DNA of 41,942 nucleotides from [Limnothrix rosea] IAM M-220 (GTDB lineage Bacteria > Cyanobacteriota > Cyanobacteriia > Cyanobacteriales > MRBY01). Both the position numbers and the translations under genes were made by a program. Under the pieces are notes generated by a model, which saw only the letters and a list, made by a program, of their open reading frames with translations, made no database searches and was not told the DNA's origin. The stretch covers positions 1 to 41,942 of the forward strand of contig NZ_MRBY01000027.1 in assembly GCF_001904615.1 (NCBI RefSeq), given 5' to 3'. How positions within the stretch are numbered: position 1 is the stretch's first letter; each line of letters opens with the position of its first letter. Shown in pieces: positions 1-33,392 of the stretch.

Positions 1-56
1 CGCTCTCCCATTCACCGCGTCGTACTTCCGAGCATGCTTAAGCAAAACTCACGTTA
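1..56 (-). repeat. Dispersed ~200-bp repeat element, copy 1 (partial, cut by window start)
   Basis: The minus strand reads inward from position 56 as TAACGTGAGTTTTGCTTAAG and continues through CATGCTCGGAAGTACGACGC, the same end seen in full copies at 9798-9980 and 33421-33619. The GTGAATGGGAGAG variant groups it with copy 4 (33421). The rest of the element lies outside the window. Confidence 0.9.
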
Positions 57-74
57 CTTATTTGGACTGACTCC

Positions 75-1280
75 ATGAAGAACCACGATGTTAGTTGGAA
101 ATTTATCCTTGTAACCCTAGGTCTTAGCTATGCCCAAGAGGCGGTGATGGCCACGGAGCTAACGCCAATGGATTTCGCGCAATTTTCACCACTGGGTGTT
201 GAGCGGCCTGAGGGAAACAGCACAATGGGGGGTAGCATGGGTACATTTCCACCGCAGGACAATATTGGCAGTCCGAGTCGGGATGGCACGGTGGGAGGGG
301 GCGGTCTTTATTTGCCAGTACCAGAGTCTGGCATGCCACCAACGCCCCATGAAACGAGGCGAGGGTATTGCATAGAGAAAGACTCTATTCGACTATTTCG
401 AGGGATTTTACCGGTGGCTGGAGGCGAGGCGATCGCCGATTCCGTTTCCTCAGAAATTAGTTTATGGTTCTATATTCCAGAAAATAATGCCATCAGAGCT
501 GAATTTAGCATCCTCAAAGAAGGGCAAAACTTCGAAGTCCTAGGTGCAGCGAATAAACAAGAATTTTTAGCGCATTATGAAGAATTCAATGACATTAGTA
601 ATCGCCAAGGTTTTGTCCAAATTACGTTACCGAAACATGCCCTAGAACCGGGTAAAAAATATCTCTGGGATTTGACCTTGACCTGTGATGAGCGTGATCG
701 CGCGACCGATGTCTATTTGTATGGTGCATTACGCCGCCACACAATTTCCCAGATCACTTTAGATACCCAAGCAACCACCATCCAAGCTTTGCGTAATGCG
801 TTATTACAAAATGATTCTGTTTTGACTTTGCCCAATCGTCAGGCTCTGGGGGGTTCCCTTTCCGATGGCGGTCAGCCGGAAACTCTAGCGTGGGTCGAAG
901 CAGAGCTCAAATCTCATTACAGCGATTTATGGCAACGCTATAACCGGTTGGGGAATCAAATGGAAAGCCTCATTACAACGTCGCCTAATATGAGTCGTAG
1001 CGCACTGATACGCTTTAGTGAAGAACGTAGTTACATTGCCATGGAACTAGCCCAGCTTTCTGCTTTCTTTGGGTTATGGGGTGATACGGTCAATCTTTTA
1101 GCGACCTACCGCTCTGATTATCCGGTAGTATGGCAGCAATTATTAGACACGTTTTTCCCCGAAGATAAATTCTGGTTGGAAGGCTCCGAGAGGGGTGATG
1201 TGATAGAACCGATCAGCAATCAAGGGGAAGCTGTCGATAAACCCAAGCCCAGAGTTTTGAGAATGTCTGAGCGACCCTAG
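75..1280 (+). CDS. Secreted DUF928 domain protein
   Basis: This 401-residue protein has an N-terminal signal peptide (hydrophobic core about residues 9-20, probable cleavage after the AVMA stretch near residue 26). A low-complexity Gly/Pro/Ser linker covers about residues 45-80. The DUF928 region follows at about 95-235, with the conserved strand ending in LTCDERDRATDVYLYG. DUF928 is common in cyanobacteria, often several copies per genome, with no established biochemical role. A periplasmic or extracellular location is inferred from the signal peptide. The C-terminal 150 residues are helical and end in a charged, Pro-rich tail. The start ATG lies just after repeat copy 1. The next gene is convergent, 13 bp downstream. 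Family assignment is good; function is unknown. Confidence 0.85.
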   Translation: MKNHDVSWKFILVTLGLSYAQEAVMATELTPMDFAQFSPLGVERPEGNSTMGGSMGTFPPQDNIGSPSRDGTVGGGGLYLPVPESGMPPTPHETRRGYCIEKDSIRLFRGILPVAGGEAIADSVSSEISLWFYIPENNAIRAEFSILKEGQNFEVLGAANKQEFLAHYEEFNDISNRQGFVQITLPKHALEPGKKYLWDLTLTCDERDRATDVYLYGALRRHTISQITLDTQATTIQALRNALLQNDSVLTLPNRQALGGSLSDGGQPETLAWVEAELKSHYSDLWQRYNRLGNQMESLITTSPNMSRSALIRFSEERSYIAMELAQLSAFFGLWGDTVNLLATYRSDYPVVWQQLLDTFFPEDKFWLEGSERGDVIEPISNQGEAVDKPKPRVLRMSERP

Positions 1281-16299: not shown

Positions 16300-16397
16300 C
16301 CTCAAGGTGACTGATGATGGTTCCCGAACCCTTAGGCAGCAGCAGTTTACCGTGGTAAACCCTACCAAAGTTAATGAAAAATACTATGTCTTTTGAA

Positions 16398-16486
16398 CGG
16401 AGAGAGAGGGATTCGAACCCTCGGAGCCGCTTACGCAACTCAACACATTAGCAATGTGTCGCTTTCGACCACTCAGCCATCTCTCC
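16398..16486 (-). tRNA. tRNA-Ser (anticodon GCU)
   Basis: The minus strand folds as a class II tRNA. The 7-bp acceptor stem GGAGAGA/TCTCTCC is complete, the D arm begins GGCTGAGTGGTCGAAAGC, the anticodon arm is CACATT-GCT-AATGTG (anticodon at 16450-16452), a long variable arm follows as expected for serine tRNA, and the T arm contains GGTTCGAATCC. The discriminator base is G and the CCA end is not encoded. Confidence 0.97.
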
Positions 16487-16565
16487 AAAGCCAACGCTAA
16501 ACGATTTTAGCAGAAGAATAAAAAAAAGGCTAACCTGAAATCAAGATTTTTTTAATAATAAAACT

Positions 16566-27897: not shown

Positions 27898-28030
27898 TTA
27901 TGTAAATTTGCAGTGGTTGCCTACCAGAATTATAGCAACCCTAAATCGTTGCAAATCTTATGGTGACTAGGGTGATGCAGGATGAGGCTTGGGGGTTAGG
28001 ATAAGAAAAAGTTTTTTGGAGACGATCGCC

Positions 28031-28339
28031 ATGATTCCGGGAGAGTTGAAACCGCTTGAGGGTGAGATTGAACTAAATGTCGGTCGCGAAACGAAGGTTC
28101 TCTCAGTCGCAAATACCGGAGATCGCCCGATTCAAATTGGGTCTCATTTTCATTTTTTTGAAGTGAATGCTGCCCTCAGTTTTGATCGCGATGCGGCAAA
28201 GGGAATGCGCCTCAATATTCCTGCTGGCACAGCGGTGCGTTTTGAGCCGGGTGATGAAAAAGAAGTGGAATTAGTTGCCCTTGCTGGTCGCCGCCATGTC
28301 TATGGCCTCAATAATTTGACCGATGGAGCACTGGACTAG
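28031..28339 (+). CDS. ureB: Urease subunit beta
   Basis: The 102-residue product begins [20 protein letters not shown], the canonical UreB start, and contains [19 protein letters not shown] and [19 protein letters not shown]. An upstream in-frame start at 27989 would add 14 residues unlike the family, so I use 28031. UreB is the small beta-type subunit that packs with UreA and the nickel subunit UreC to hydrolyse urea to ammonia and carbon dioxide in the cytosol. ureA, ureC and the accessory genes are not in the window; scattered urease genes are known in some cyanobacteria. The stop codon is followed directly by the start of the ROK kinase gene, so the two are probably co-transcribed. Confidence 0.95.
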
Positions 28340-29221
28340 ATGACGGACGTAATCGGCATTGATCTTGGCGGTACTGGCATTAAAGCGGGTCGCTTTCACG
28401 TGGACGGCTCTTGCATTGAGGAGCGCAAAATTGCCACACCCCAACCGAGCACACCAATGGCTGTGGCTGAGGCGATCGCCGAACTTGCCAATGACCTAAA
28501 TGCCGACAAAAAATGTAAGGCCATGGGTATCGGTATTCCGGGGCCAGTGGACGGTACAGCTCGCATTGCGCGGGTGGCGATTAATCTCAGCGGTTGGCAT
28601 GATGTCCCCCTCGCAGATTTGGTGGAAAAGCAAACGGGTTTGTCGGTCACCCTCAACAATGATGCCAACTGTGCAGGGCTTGGTGAAGCTTGGCTGGGGG
28701 CAGGTCGCAATCACCAAAATCTTCTACTGATCACCCTTGGTACTGGGGTCGGTGGGGCAATCATTCTCAATGGCAAATTATTTATGGGGCATTACGGTGC
28801 GGCGGGAGAGCTGGGTCTGATCACCCTAAATCCCGATGGCCCCCCCTGCAACAGCGGTAACAATGGCTCCTTTGAACAATATTGCTCGATTAATGGCATT
28901 AAAAGATTGTCCGGTCGTGAGCCAGCCCAACTCGGTCGCCTTGCCACAAAAGGAGACCCTGAGGCGATCGCCCACTGGGAACAATACGGCGCTCTACTCG
29001 GTGCGGGTTTAACCAGCCTAATTTATATTTTCACGCCAGAAATGGTGATTATCGGCGGCGGCATCAGTGCCAGTAGCGATTTCTTTTTACCCGCCACCAG
29101 AGCAGAAATCAAAAAACGGGTGCTAGCTTCCTCCCGCATCGATCTCCAACTCGTCACCGCAGAACTCGGTAACCGCGCCGGCATGGTCGGAGCCGCAAAA
29201 TTAGCCTTACAAAAACTTTAA
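28340..29221 (+). CDS. ROK-family sugar kinase (glucokinase-like)
   Basis: The 293-residue protein has the ROK layout. The phosphate-binding motif is GIDLGGTGIKAG (6-17), the catalytic base is D108 in NNDANCAG, the second ATP motif is ITLGTGVGGA (131-140), and GAAGELG (153-159) is present. The usual ROK zinc motif CxCGxxGCxE is altered to PCNSGNNGSFEQYC (169-182), with Cys only at 170 and 182. ROK kinases phosphorylate glucose, N-acetyl sugars or allose. A glucokinase role is likely for a single cyanobacterial ROK gene, but substrate is not proven. It follows ureB with no gap and ends 2 bp from the convergent two-gene island. Confidence 0.85.
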   Translation: MTDVIGIDLGGTGIKAGRFHVDGSCIEERKIATPQPSTPMAVAEAIAELANDLNADKKCKAMGIGIPGPVDGTARIARVAINLSGWHDVPLADLVEKQTGLSVTLNNDANCAGLGEAWLGAGRNHQNLLLITLGTGVGGAIILNGKLFMGHYGAAGELGLITLNPDGPPCNSGNNGSFEQYCSINGIKRLSGREPAQLGRLATKGDPEAIAHWEQYGALLGAGLTSLIYIFTPEMVIIGGGISASSDFFLPATRAEIKKRVLASSRIDLQLVTAELGNRAGMVGAAKLALQKL

Positions 29222-29223
29222 AT

Positions 29224-29916
29224 TTATTCCTCAGTCGAAAGCAATTTAACTAACTCAGCTTTTTTGAACTTGCTGTAACCAGAAAAACCGCGTTTCTTTG
29301 CCATTTTTTTAAGTTCAGTAGCATTAAAAGTCTCTAGCCAAGCACAATCTGTAATTACGTCTGGCAAAGGCTGTGGAGTAACATAAAAAACTTCTCTAAG
29401 AATATTTAGTTTCTTTCTACTACGAGTAGTAATGCCACATCCAAGTTTAGTGATATCAGAAAGATTTTCTTTCCAGTACTGAGTATAAGCCGCATCAATT
29501 TTTTCTGTGGCGGCAGCTAGATTGACACCTTTGAGAGGGTTTAGGGGACGAGTAATTAGATAGTCCAAAGCCGTCTTAATTTCGTCACGAGAAGCCACAG
29601 CTAAATCAACTTTTCCAACTAGTTCTTGGGACAAAGTTTGAGCTGCTACTTCTGTTTTCTTATCATGATCTGCAACGATGCACCATACCTTTGTTAAGCC
29701 TGCTTCTTCAGCCGCTGCAAAAACAAAACTGTTAGCAATCACTTCATAAGAATCCGAACCTGTTTGTTTAACAATTACAGGTATCCAATTTCTACCGTCA
29801 GCTTCATTAATTGCATTTGCAGCACTATTGATCAGAAAGTCATGGGATTCTGTTGGTAAATTAGTCTCTATTTCATCAAGGTATAAATGAAGAAGTGACC
29901 CAATTTCTTGTTTCAT
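29224..29916 (-). CDS. ParB-like N-terminal / Rho_N-like C-terminal protein of the nuclease-ParA island
   Basis: This 230-residue protein has two recognisable parts. Residues about 41-84 (WIPVIVKQTGSDSYEVIANS, then AAAEEAGLTKVWCIV) resemble the N-terminal ParB/Srx-fold domain, but the GERR motif that binds CTP in true ParB reads ANSFVF, so it is degenerate. Residues about 195-227 (ATELKKMAKKRGFSGYSKFK) resemble Rho_N or SAP domains that bind nucleic acid. The central region (90-190) I cannot assign. It has no HIP1 sites and AT-rich codons, unlike its neighbours. Its ATG overlaps the TAA of the upstream ATPase gene (TAATG), so the two proteins should be made together. It could be a partner, specificity or DNA/RNA-binding subunit. 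Domain calls rest on motif reading only. Confidence 0.7.
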   Translation of the reverse strand: MKQEIGSLLHLYLDEIETNLPTESHDFLINSAANAINEADGRNWIPVIVKQTGSDSYEVIANSFVFAAAEEAGLTKVWCIVADHDKKTEVAAQTLSQELVGKVDLAVASRDEIKTALDYLITRPLNPLKGVNLAAATEKIDAAYTQYWKENLSDITKLGCGITTRSRKKLNILREVFYVTPQPLPDVITDCAWLETFNATELKKMAKKRGFSGYSKFKKAELVKLLSTEE

Positions 29917-31325
29917 TAGATAAAGTATTCCCGAACTAGATTTCTATAATATTCACGAGCCTTTTTACTCGTAAAAACTGCTGGGCGACTAGAGAACGCC
30001 GCGGATGCAATATGAGCATAGCTAGGCATTACAAAAATATCAAGATTTTTTCTGGAGTTTGTATACTTTGGAAAAAAGAATTTCATCAAGTCAATTTGTT
30101 CTTCTTTTCTCGCCGCTTTTACAATTGAAAGAATTGCCTTTTGTGCCTGTTCTTTCTGAGTTGGTGTAATAGATTCACCATTAAAGAAAATCGGTAATGG
30201 AATTGGATCACCTAAATACCGAATTGAATCATGAGTATTCTCAAACTCAGCATCTCTGCGAGCTTCTCCTAAGTCAGGAAACATAGTTGTCATAGCTACG
30301 GCTGCATTTTTGAATGAGGCAATACCATTATGTTTAGATGGCATTAAAACAACATCTGATGCAGCAATTGCTTCCTCCGTAAATAAATTTCTTCCGGGCG
30401 GAGAATCTATCAGAATATAGTCATAATCATTCTTGACTTCTGTCAGTGCTTTACGTAAAAAGCTGCGATTTAGATACTTGATATACTCATTTTGTCCCGA
30501 ATGCAAATCGTCATCAACAGGTAAGATATCAAACCCATATTCTTTACCACTTTTAGTTAGTAGCCTATAACGAGAAATAACATCTTTTATATTATTGTTT
30601 TTATGATCCTGAATAAACTTGGAAAGAGTCACATTGTTAGGCTTAACTTCAAGTAAATCAGTCAGATCTTTTTGATTGGGGTCAAAATCTACAACCAAAA
30701 CTTTTTTTGCAAATCCCAATGGATTTTCTCTTTTTCCAATCGGCAAAGAAAGAATTCCTGCAAGGTTAATGACTGTTGTCGTTTTACCAACACCTCCCTT
30801 GTTGTTATATACGGCAATAGATAGTGCTTTCTCTTCGTTCTCTAAATAGTACTTAATTAATGCGATTCTTTGCTGAATATTGTCTGCTGTAAGCTTAAGA
30901 TTTTGCGTGTAAGGATAAACAACTAGACCATGTCGTCTAAACAATTGAATATTATCTCCGTTAGTAATAATGCCCCATTTTGCACTTCTTGAATGTTTAG
31001 CAGAAGAGTGCAAGTACTTCCGAATTTGATTAACTGTTTTTTTATAACTTGTACCTTGCTCCAAGTTAATATCGCGACCTTTAATCTCGATTAAAACATA
31101 TGGATTCTTTGGCGCAATTAAAAAACTATCTTCGTAACCTTTGCTGCAGCGAATGGCAAAATCTACTTTATCGCCACCTTTACCTGTCTTAAATTCTGGA
31201 TAACATTCATCATCTAAGTAACCTAAAGCACGAATGAGAGCTGGCATCAATATTTTCCCGACAACTGGCTCTTGAGCTGCGTCAGGAAGGGATAGCCATG
31301 CTTCTTTTAGGTTTAGGGTTGACAT
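29916..31325 (-). CDS. Fusion of PD-(D/E)XK nuclease-like (HsdR_N type) domain with ParA/MinD-type ATPase
   Basis: This 469-residue protein has two parts. Residues about 15-160 fit the HsdR_N-like PD-(D/E)XK fold: D55 in KVDFAI, E80-x-K82 in VLIEIKGRD, Q100-x3-Y104 in QIRKYL, and the characteristic WGIITNGDNIQLFR (117-130). Residues about 166-465 form a ParA/MinD ATPase: deviant Walker A KGGVGKTT (176-183, with both lysines), switch I-like VVDFDPNQKDLT (211-222), and Walker B YILIDSPPG (303-311). All catalytic-looking residues are present in both halves, so both may be active. ParA proteins usually act with a ParB-like partner, and the coupled downstream gene supplies a candidate. No host HIP1 sites occur. 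A defence or plasmid-derived maintenance function is inference. Confidence 0.8.
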   Translation of the reverse strand: MSTLNLKEAWLSLPDAAQEPVVGKILMPALIRALGYLDDECYPEFKTGKGGDKVDFAIRCSKGYEDSFLIAPKNPYVLIEIKGRDINLEQGTSYKKTVNQIRKYLHSSAKHSRSAKWGIITNGDNIQLFRRHGLVVYPYTQNLKLTADNIQQRIALIKYYLENEEKALSIAVYNNKGGVGKTTTVINLAGILSLPIGKRENPLGFAKKVLVVDFDPNQKDLTDLLEVKPNNVTLSKFIQDHKNNNIKDVISRYRLLTKSGKEYGFDILPVDDDLHSGQNEYIKYLNRSFLRKALTEVKNDYDYILIDSPPGRNLFTEEAIAASDVVLMPSKHNGIASFKNAAVAMTTMFPDLGEARRDAEFENTHDSIRYLGDPIPLPIFFNGESITPTQKEQAQKAILSIVKAARKEEQIDLMKFFFPKYTNSRKNLDIFVMPSYAHIASAAFSSRPAVFTSKKAREYYRNLVREYFI

Positions 31326-31450
31326 AGGTTTTGGTTATGTTTTTTGGTTTGATTAATAATCTTAGCAAGTTTTTATCAACTGAACACGAAGGAGCAGGCG
31401 GTATATTTTGTCAAGCAGCTCTCTTCTTTGGCACGGTTGTTCTTCTAGGT

Positions 31451-31490
31451 GTTTACTGATAATTGATAGATAACTGATAACTGTTCACTG
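31451..31490 (-). repeat. Heptamer tandem repeat (STRR type)
   Basis: The minus strand reads AGTGAAC, AGTTATC, AGTTATC, then a short irregular part and AGTAAAC, the same 7-bp units as at 37204-37273 but in opposite orientation. It ends 2 bp before the proB start codon and so occupies its leader. Confidence 0.8.
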
Positions 31491-31492
31491 AA

Positions 31493-32626
31493 ATGTCTCA
31501 AACAATTGTTGTAAAAATTGGCACATCGAGTCTGACCGATCCAGAAACAGGGATGCTTGCCCTTGCAACCATTGGCACATTAGTCGAAACATTAACGCGC
31601 CTAAAGCAAATGGGACACAACGTGATTCTGGTGTCTTCTGGCGCTGTGGGTGTGGGTTGTGGTCGCCTCAATCTGTCGGAACGCCCCAAGAAAATTGCCG
31701 TTAAACAAGCCGTTGCCGCCGTTGGTCAGGGCAGATTAATTCGTCTTTACGATGATCTATTTACCAGTCTGCAACAGGCGATCGCCCAAGTTTTGTTAAC
31801 GAGAAAAGACCTTGTTGATCGCACCTCCTATCTCACCGTCCAAGAAGCCCTCAATGCCATGTTGGAGCTGGGCGTAATCCCGATTGTGAATGAAAACGAT
31901 ACCGTCGCCGTCGATGAACTCAAATTTGGCGATAACGATACTTTGTCGGCTTTGGTTGCGAGCTTGGTGAATGCCGATTGGCTGGTAATTTTGACCGATG
32001 TGGATCGCCTCTATTCCGCCGATCCCCGCCACAATCCCGACGCGAAACCCATTCCCCTCGTTAGCCCGACCGAACTATCACAGCTACAAGTAGACGCAGG
32101 CTCTAGCGGTTCCCAATGGGGCACAGGCGGCATGCAAACCAAACTGACCGCCGCCAAAATTGCCACCAATGCCGGAGTCCGCACCGTCATCACCCAAGGC
32201 AAAACACCCCAGAACCTCATCAAAATTATTCAAGGCGACGATATCGGCACCCACTTCGAAGCCAACCCCCAAACCGACAATTCTCGCAAACGTTGGATCG
32301 CCTACGGACTCGTTCCCCAAGGCAAACTGTACCTCGATGACGGCGCAGCAAAAGCACTCCTCACCAAAGGAAAATCCCTCCTCGCCGCAGGCATCATCAA
32401 AACCGAAGGCAACTTTAGTGTTAATGACGCAGTAGAGTTGTGTCACAAAAATGGACAGGCGATCGCCAGAGGATTAGTCAACTACGACAGTGCGGCGATC
32501 GCCAAAATCAAAGGCAAACACTCCAAACAAATCACCGAAATTTTAGGCTACACCGGAGCCGATACCATCATTCACCGCGATAACCTCGCCTTTCTCCTCG
32601 GATCACCGGGCAATGTGGGAAAATAA
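31493..32626 (+). CDS. proB: Glutamate 5-kinase
   Basis: The 377-residue protein has an amino-acid-kinase domain (about 1-255), with KIGTSSLTD at the N terminus, [10 protein letters not shown] (about 45-54), [17 protein letters not shown] for substrate binding and GTGGMQTKL for nucleotide contacts. A C-terminal PUA domain follows (about 275-360). It phosphorylates L-glutamate to gamma-glutamyl phosphate, the first and usually proline-inhibited step of proline synthesis in the cytosol. Length and domains are typical of ProB with PUA. proA is not adjacent. No ribosome-binding site is visible because the heptamer repeat lies right against the ATG. The fibrillin gene follows 35 bp downstream and may be co-transcribed. 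Confidence 0.96.
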
Positions 32627-33252: not shown

Positions 33253-33298
33253 GCTGTGCGTGAATTTATCCGTGTCGAATTTCGCATTAAAAGCAAAA

Positions 33299-33392
33299 GA
33301 CCCGGAGTCCACGCCTATCCCAAGCATCCCGTATTGCTGCTACCTTCCGGTCCTGACAAGGTTTGGGCGTTGTGATCGCATGAATCCGAGCC
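33299..33392 (-). ncRNA. ffs: Signal recognition particle small RNA (4.5S type)
   Basis: The minus strand contains the hallmark SRP domain IV apical region, GTCAGGACCGGAAGGTAGCA, followed by GCAATACGGGATG, flanked by long complementary arms. The outer stem pairs GGCTCGGATTC (33382-33392) with GACTCCGGGTC (33299-33309), with wobbles. The transcript continues into a T-rich stretch (TTTTGCTTTT), consistent with termination. It pairs with Ffh for co-translational membrane targeting. Ends are set from the stem and may differ by a few bases. Confidence 0.95.

Follow-up and report, generated by a model that had tools for sequence, protein, structure and literature searches.

ParA and ParB proteins are a central paradigm of DNA segregation, and a two-gene island of the cyanobacterium [Limnothrix rosea] IAM M-220 raises the question of what such a pair does when its ParA is joined to a restriction-type nuclease domain. 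The island was analysed within contig NZ_MRBY01000027.1, the 41,942 nucleotides of which are called the window here. Its two genes, P0001 and P0002, are flanked by a ROK-family gene and proB, both on the opposite strand (Table 1). A conserved fusion of a ParA with a restriction-type nuclease would point either to immunity assembled out of segregation components or to a partition process that needs cleavage, and either outcome would be a surprise. The module is also a candidate barrier against DNA uptake in cyanobacteria. A preliminary description of this DNA had the stop codon of P0001 overlapping the start of P0002, and this was confirmed: the two codons share one base within the pentamer TAATG, an arrangement that suggests translational coupling. 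The divergent intergenic region next to P0001 is the likely promoter of the module; neither iterons nor palindromes were found in it.

Table 1. Features of the island, its surroundings and the repeat arrays near two plasmid-borne relatives
Feature	Position	Strand	Description	Basis
ROK-family gene	28340-29221	plus		name read from sequence
P0002	29224-29916	minus	230 aa; ParB/sulfiredoxin-like N-terminal part, middle region, Rho_N/SAP-like C-terminus 194-223	
TAATG	29914-29918	minus	P0001 stop/P0002 start overlap, one base in common	sequence
P0001	29916-31325	minus	469 aa; HSDR_N-type PD-(D/E)XK domain and ParA/MinD-type ATPase	
Predicted PD-(D/E)XK domain of P0001	residues ~15-140		E19, D55, E80, K82, Q100, Y104	PF13588 profile, motif conservation
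ParA/MinD-type ATPase of P0001	residues 165-469			AAA_31, AF2 model, Soj/ParA superposition
Divergent intergenic region	31326-31492		candidate module promoter	
proB	31493-32626	plus		name read from sequence
Segment inserted relative to G005	29227-31440, edges approximate			blastn and junction reading
GTAACAG array	L034 411-874, plasmid ABRG53g		downstream of module	
TGCTGACA array	L082 7365-7512, pPg_01		0.5-0.6 kb upstream of module	

The N-terminal half of P0001 had been read as an HsdR_N-type PD-(D/E)XK domain, and the profile and motif evidence agrees with this as a candidate fold. All of the named motifs (D55, E80-x-K82 and Q100-x3-Y104, as well as KGGVGKTT and YILIDSPPG) are found in the protein. 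The HSDR_N_2 profile (PF13588) matches residues 29-129 with 24.8 bits in the whole protein, where the cut-off is 25, and the isolated N-domain scores 26.9 bits, above that cut-off; nine of ten N-domains scanned from the clades described below were matched as well (E 0.01). When whole genomes were searched with PF13588 (E 1e-5), the own genome yielded no match, so that the call for P0001 is borderline on its own, and the same search put seven ParA-length frames (457-498 aa) from seven relatives over the cut-off. The best of five AlphaFold models of P0001 had a mean pLDDT of 73.7 and the rest 56-66 (six sequences); its residues 19-121 form the order helix-strand-strand-strand-helix-strand, with D55 and E80 within strands. 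The Foldseek and VIA-align lists contain ParA-like chains throughout and bear on the ATPase half alone. The predicted, borderline nuclease fold is therefore based on profile, secondary structure and motifs, from which we infer that the domain may act as a nuclease. Comparison with PDB sequences yielded nothing relevant for the N-domain of clade a, to which P0001 belongs, and a single chain, RPB_PLP3_R6 (3e-7), for that of clade c.

The remainder of P0001 was expected to be an intact ParA/MinD ATPase fused to this domain, and it clearly is: besides the KGGVGKTT motif, AAA_31 matches at 169-332 (1.4e-28), the model of the ATPase half superposes on Soj/ParA with Z 22.1 at 3.0 A over 248 residues, and the P-loop matches are ParA/MinD-like.

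For P0002, the best AF2 model reached a mean pLDDT of 81 (others 52-73), and its best Foldseek matches were ParB, Noc, KorB, PadC and sulfiredoxin, with E from 2e-6. Whole-chain TM-scores stayed low, at 0.24-0.38 of the query, which confines the likeness to one domain. ParB_N (22.2 bits, cut-off 26.3) and Rho_N (22.3 bits, Pfam cut-off 24.9) both remain slightly below threshold. The degenerate ParB-like N terminus ascribed to P0002 is supported by the structural matches together with the sub-threshold ParB_N score; of the proposed Rho_N/SAP-like C terminus, a possible DNA-binding tail stands, and the Rho_N assignment itself stays under the cut-off. No HTH_ParB or KorB domain was detected up to E 1 in P0002 or in six partners from clades b and c; the ParB beside locus L031 matches HTH_ParB at 1e-36. 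A ParB dimerisation domain was likewise not detected in the partner, and GERR, the CTP-binding motif of the ParB N-domain, occurs in 0/42 aligned partners of the three clades. In the partners of L048-L051, L053-L056 and L040, the segment 103-180 was matched twice, and this second, diverged copy mostly occupies the place that the Rho_N-like tail has in P0002.

Homologues of P0001 (clade a) are present in 24 of 100 genomes, the own one included, with 39-56% identity in the other 23 carriers, and relatives of the partner (38-67% identity) adjoin them. Because relatives of both proteins co-occur in 23 other genomes, the observation goes beyond chance. Partner sequence lies beside the P0001 homologue in all 24 carriers; the match spans at least 177 model positions in 23 of these and 47 positions in G085, a remnant. 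Taken together with clades b and c, this bears out the pairing outside the strain that the preliminary description anticipated. Four of the 24 copies are broken (G044, G068, G083, G085). Counted from the earliest start codon of each partner frame, the stop codon runs into the start codon at 27 of the 30 clade-a loci that have both frames, three of the 27 being the broken copies L056-L058; the exceptions are L032 with a 12-base gap, L037 with a 53-base gap and L052 with a broken frame. The partner was not seen at L030, a shortened copy by a contig end. In a phylum-wide sample, clade-a matches occurred in 21/146 genomes (E 1e-60, fragments included).

Two distant clades, b and c, have the identical layout. 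Clade-b proteins are 25-32% identical, carry KGGV[AS]KTT in seven of eight cases and are found on chromosomes and plasmids, with partners that measure 178-188 aa, apart from the one on ABRG53g, which the record end cuts to 134 aa. Clade c matches in 29/146 genomes, 20 of them full-length, and its partners (227-309 aa) show ParB_N over the cut-off together with weak helix-hairpin-helix matches in three of four scanned. Profile comparisons connect the N-domains of clade a with those of b (4.8e-17) and c (1.7e-12), and the partners in the same order at 1.2e-26 and 6.6e-6. Distances between the ATPases go along with those between the partners (r = 0.78, n = 25), a correlation that shared descent alone could produce. 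All four records of the plasmid collection with matches covering at least 80% of P0001 are cyanobacterial, and three matches inspected from outside the cyanobacteria proved to be ordinary ParAs, 255-338 aa in length. A scan of the genome collection with exact peptide patterns returned five relatives from cyanobacteria and, from Bacteroidetes, a single ParA, which is without the N-domain and sits beside a canonical ParB. In ten genomes (G016, G019, G026, G039, G043, G052, G065, G079, G083, G087) a second ParA-like match, in a frame of about 300-340 aa, lies about 3 kb or less from a ParA-like match of 470-503 aa.

The module is accessory, being sporadic, sometimes broken and present on plasmids and phage-like elements in addition to chromosomes. 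In the sister genome G005 the ROK-family gene, the product of which is 91% identical to that of the window, lies about 0.1 kb from proB, a distance of 2.27 kb in the window. The pair is thus absent from the same gap, in agreement with the island character proposed for it; no target-site duplication was seen at the insertion. G005 alone provides this empty site, because in the flanks covered for the four other congeners proB is not beside the ROK gene. Conserved synteny with housekeeping genes was looked for, and what was found is sporadic carriage with neighbours that vary among 31 loci; a housekeeping gene is ruled out by the counts of 24/100 and 21/146 genomes and by the empty gap in G005. 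At least seven of the 24 clade-a copies sit on contigs of more than 2.8 Mb and are therefore chromosomal. Nine copies, three broken ones included, share a contig with dnaN. Their distances from it are about 12 kb in G212 and, as a share of the contig, 0.8, 12, 26, 26, 30, 35, 36 and 50%, if the contigs are taken to be circular and dnaN to mark the origin (the length for G170 is rounded). Such distances, which range between 12 kb and half a chromosome, rule out origin-linked segregation for clade a. In clade c, three of nine full-length copies (G096, G153, G050) are within 5% of dnaN, so that a weak tie to the origin is possible in that clade.

Around the 31 clade-a loci, no neighbour cluster apart from the pair itself recurs in more than seven; one cluster of nine proteins follows in seven loci, two occur in four and the rest in three or fewer. 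The most frequent Pfam families among the 114 nearest neighbours scanned (130 in total) were ABC_tran (7), AAA_21 (4), SMC_N (4), Rhomboid (3) and Acyltransferase (3). At 1e-5, 258 PADLOC families matched some of these 114 proteins, led, among the 25 families listed, by mad3 (7), mad8 (5), ATPase-Toprim_I-B (5), AriA (4) and AbiLi (3); many of these may be cross-matches of ATPases and kinases. The few defence-ATPase-like proteins among the neighbours were counted without a control set. Against PADLOC-DB 2.0.0, which leaves out newer systems, P0001 had a trivial best match (PDC-M28B, 16.1 bits, E 0.0011) and P0002 had none. Matches in PADLOC, PHROGs and NCBIfam were to the ParA half, to families of short C-terminal domains, or weak, and no description of the fusion or the pair was found in the titles and abstracts among the open-access literature matches listed. 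The combination had been put forward as one that could not be named, and none of the named systems in these three databases and the literature matches listed corresponded to it.

Given these observations, we lean, tentatively and short of conviction, towards an ATP-gated nuclease that acts against other DNA elements, and place this reading before partition or maintenance, then regulation or positioning, and last addiction or selfish spreading. The pair would be a self-contained, horizontally moving interference module, in which an ATP-bound ParA dimer on DNA could juxtapose two PD-(D/E)XK domains for a double-strand cut. The ParB-like partner, via its C-terminal module, might select, load or license the complex for the DNA to be cut and would trigger hydrolysis, resetting the ATPase. 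Most likely the target would be competing mobile elements, plasmids or phages, and the logic would parallel, with ParA/ParB parts, that of Wadjet/MksBEFG, in which a segregation-type SMC complex works with a nuclease. Interference is supported by the partner adjoining in all 24 carriers and the correlated ATPase and partner distances, by sporadic carriage, broken copies and the empty site in G005, and by the recurrence of the pair alone in more than seven of 31 loci. Counting against it are the PADLOC results, trivial for P0001 and nil for P0002, neighbours that demonstrate no link to defence islands, a nuclease fold predicted from profile, secondary structure and motifs, and the lack of a modification gene to spare self; since no methylase gene recurs beside the pair, protection of self DNA would depend on something other than dedicated modification. 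It is possible, if doubtful, that the module is an immunity system or inter-element weapon built from ParA and ParB, a ParA analogue of Wadjet with swappable partner C-termini picking the target. Here the ParA dimer, an ATP-driven sandwich on DNA, would gate the fused restriction-type nuclease, the C-terminal modules of the partners (Rho_N/SAP-like, helix-hairpin-helix-like, or none) would set the specificity, and cyanobacteria would maintain at least three clades of the system.

The occurrence of the module on plasmids of Nostoc sp. UHCC 0870 and of Pseudanabaena, on Leptolyngbya pLBA and on an IMG/VR contig brings in the strongest alternative: a partition or maintenance system of plasmids or phage-plasmids, the ParA of which acquired a nuclease domain that might, for instance, resolve tangled copies or punish competitors, with the chromosomal copies being relics or domesticated. 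We consider this a real possibility that falls behind interference. A partition machine is the simplest reading of a ParA that has a ParB-like partner, which weighs against interference, as does the finding that on ABRG53g and the terminase-bearing pLBA neither annotation nor tblastn with five Nostoc Par proteins detected a partition gene other than the module. The three co-resident Nostoc plasmids share backbone blocks of more than 1 kb at 90.6-95.2% identity, with Rep 92-96% and ParM 96% identical. Their modules fall outside these blocks and diverge, with ParA-fusion proteins 53% (a-a) or 25-29% (a-b) identical, as incompatibility would demand of a partition system. However, the same plasmids also speak against partition, for ParM is present on unnamed4, unnamed9 and unnamed10 alike, unnamed10 has one and unnamed4 two intact canonical ParA/ParB pairs, and unnamed9 has the same ParA with ParB matching as two overlapping pieces, so that its ParB frame looks split. 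The module is therefore not the sole partition system of the Nostoc plasmids, and strongly different modules, present in addition to ParM and further Par genes, argue for interference. The plasmid unnamed4 (L033/L087) seems to have arisen by the joining of two plasmids, with two replication proteins besides ParM, the two ParA/ParB pairs and the module.

On two plasmids the module has repeat arrays close by, of GTAACAG in the case of ABRG53g and of TGCTGACA in that of pPg_01; these are possibly replication iterons or centromeres and would fit partition. Yet the two modules are 92% identical and their arrays differ, neither being found near the module of the other plasmid. On pPg_01, of which 17 of 226 kb were covered, a second, weakly ParA-like gene is near the module. 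No repeats common to the surroundings of the remaining copies were found, and those flagged near L043, L046, L047 and L059 are not common to one another. An upstream operator or centromere common to the copies was set aside, as none was found, with a single or distant parS still conceivable, and so were the AGACACCA repeats near the unnamed9 module, which are part of a stretch common to the three plasmids. The missing HTH and GERR of P0002 and the chromosomal copies further disfavour partition; the lack of common iterons and the varied distances from dnaN support interference. As to phage-like elements, pLBA (Leptolyngbya boryana, L088/L089), recorded as a plasmid, has terminase and Rad52-like genes near the module and is likely a phage-plasmid. 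In the viral collection, P0001 matches one contig and P0002 none; an apparent Rad52-like gene was seen by eye near the module on the viral-collection contig L077. The phage collection gave 71 records, and among the 30 matches listed none covers 80% of P0001.

Constraint on the predicted nuclease site bears both on interference and on a third explanation, a positioning or regulatory pair derived from ParA/ParB (McdAB- or PadC-ParA-like) that would use the HSDR_N fold for DNA binding only. Across the three clades, E19 is kept in 39/40, D55 in 39/40, E80 in 41/41 and K82 in 40/41 sequences, and the Walker A lysine K181 in 42/42 (42 proteins aligned, each 350 aa or longer; of 46, the short L030, L031, L057 and L058 were left out), at just 26-28% identity between the N-domains of the three clades in profile alignments. 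In three close pairs, the N-domain had a pairwise dN/dS of 0.10-0.20, compared with 0.07-0.18 in the ATPase and 0.11-0.21 in the partner, so the nuclease-type domain is not relaxed in these pairs. The predicted site is thus clearly under constraint, as judged from the aligned sequences, and the catalytic tetrad kept in three clades, together with these dN/dS values, supports interference. The conservation of the four residues, the sporadic presence and the decay make a positioning or regulatory pair unlikely; in its favour are the PadC-like ParB domain without a detected HTH and one variant, L049 8838-10217 in genome G077, which lost D55 and K82, has an intact Walker A and a partner, and also counts against interference. 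Addiction or selfish spreading, in which the nuclease harms cells or empty alleles without the cassette and the partner restrains it, would suit the two overlapping genes and the clean insertion relative to G005, but is very improbable given an ATPase conserved equally to the nuclease-type domain and neighbours that vary among genomes, the latter arguing against site-specific homing. The partner frame is left open in three of four broken loci, which an antidote would predict and which does not tip the balance either way.

Returning to the interference reading, the module resembles several known systems in part. It shares with ParABS a ParA ATPase with an intact deviant Walker A and a ParB-like gene directly downstream. 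It differs in the N-terminal PD-(D/E)XK domain of P0001, in partners without GERR and with no HTH or ParB dimerisation domain detected, in that no centromere was found near the module, the arrays on two plasmids being private, and in its coexistence with other Par genes on the Nostoc plasmids. Plain ParABS was rejected, as GERR and HTH, two of its defining features, are absent. The HsdR subunit of type I restriction systems has the N-terminal domain family (PF13588/PF04313) and the catalytic motifs in common with P0001, whereas P0001 has no SF2 helicase match and a ParA ATPase in its place. Neither HsdM nor HsdS was seen beside the pair, which is adjoined by the ROK-family gene and proB, with no family in more than seven of 31 loci; without motor and M/S, a type I restriction subunit is ruled out. 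McdA is similar in its ParA-type ATPase and PadC in its ParB-like protein, but neither has a nuclease domain, and their roles differ from those proposed for P0001 and P0002. Wadjet/MksBEFG is an SMC complex with a nuclease that differs from that of P0001, and no SMC gene recurs beside the pair in 31 loci (SMC_N in 4/114 neighbours). The likeness lies in a segregation-type machine joined to a nuclease (PMC10123090, PMC10586767). GmrSD, Osa and DdrB (PMC5512222) and SspE similarly place a ParB/Srx-like fold in mobile-element conflict. For polyvalent proteins, PMC5512222 describes a conserved active-site arginine and notes no ParA association, whereas P0002-type partners are without the GERR arginines and have ParA as a constant neighbour. 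The cassette may accordingly be viewed as of ParA/ParB type armed with a nuclease-type domain, and a categorically new function is possible.

Elsewhere in the window, an apparent urease beta subunit gene precedes the ROK-family gene (27989-28339, plus), with the other urease genes not beside it by eye. The window also contains a tRNA-Ser (GCT) gene (16397-16487, minus) and the bacterial small SRP RNA (33296-33392, minus).
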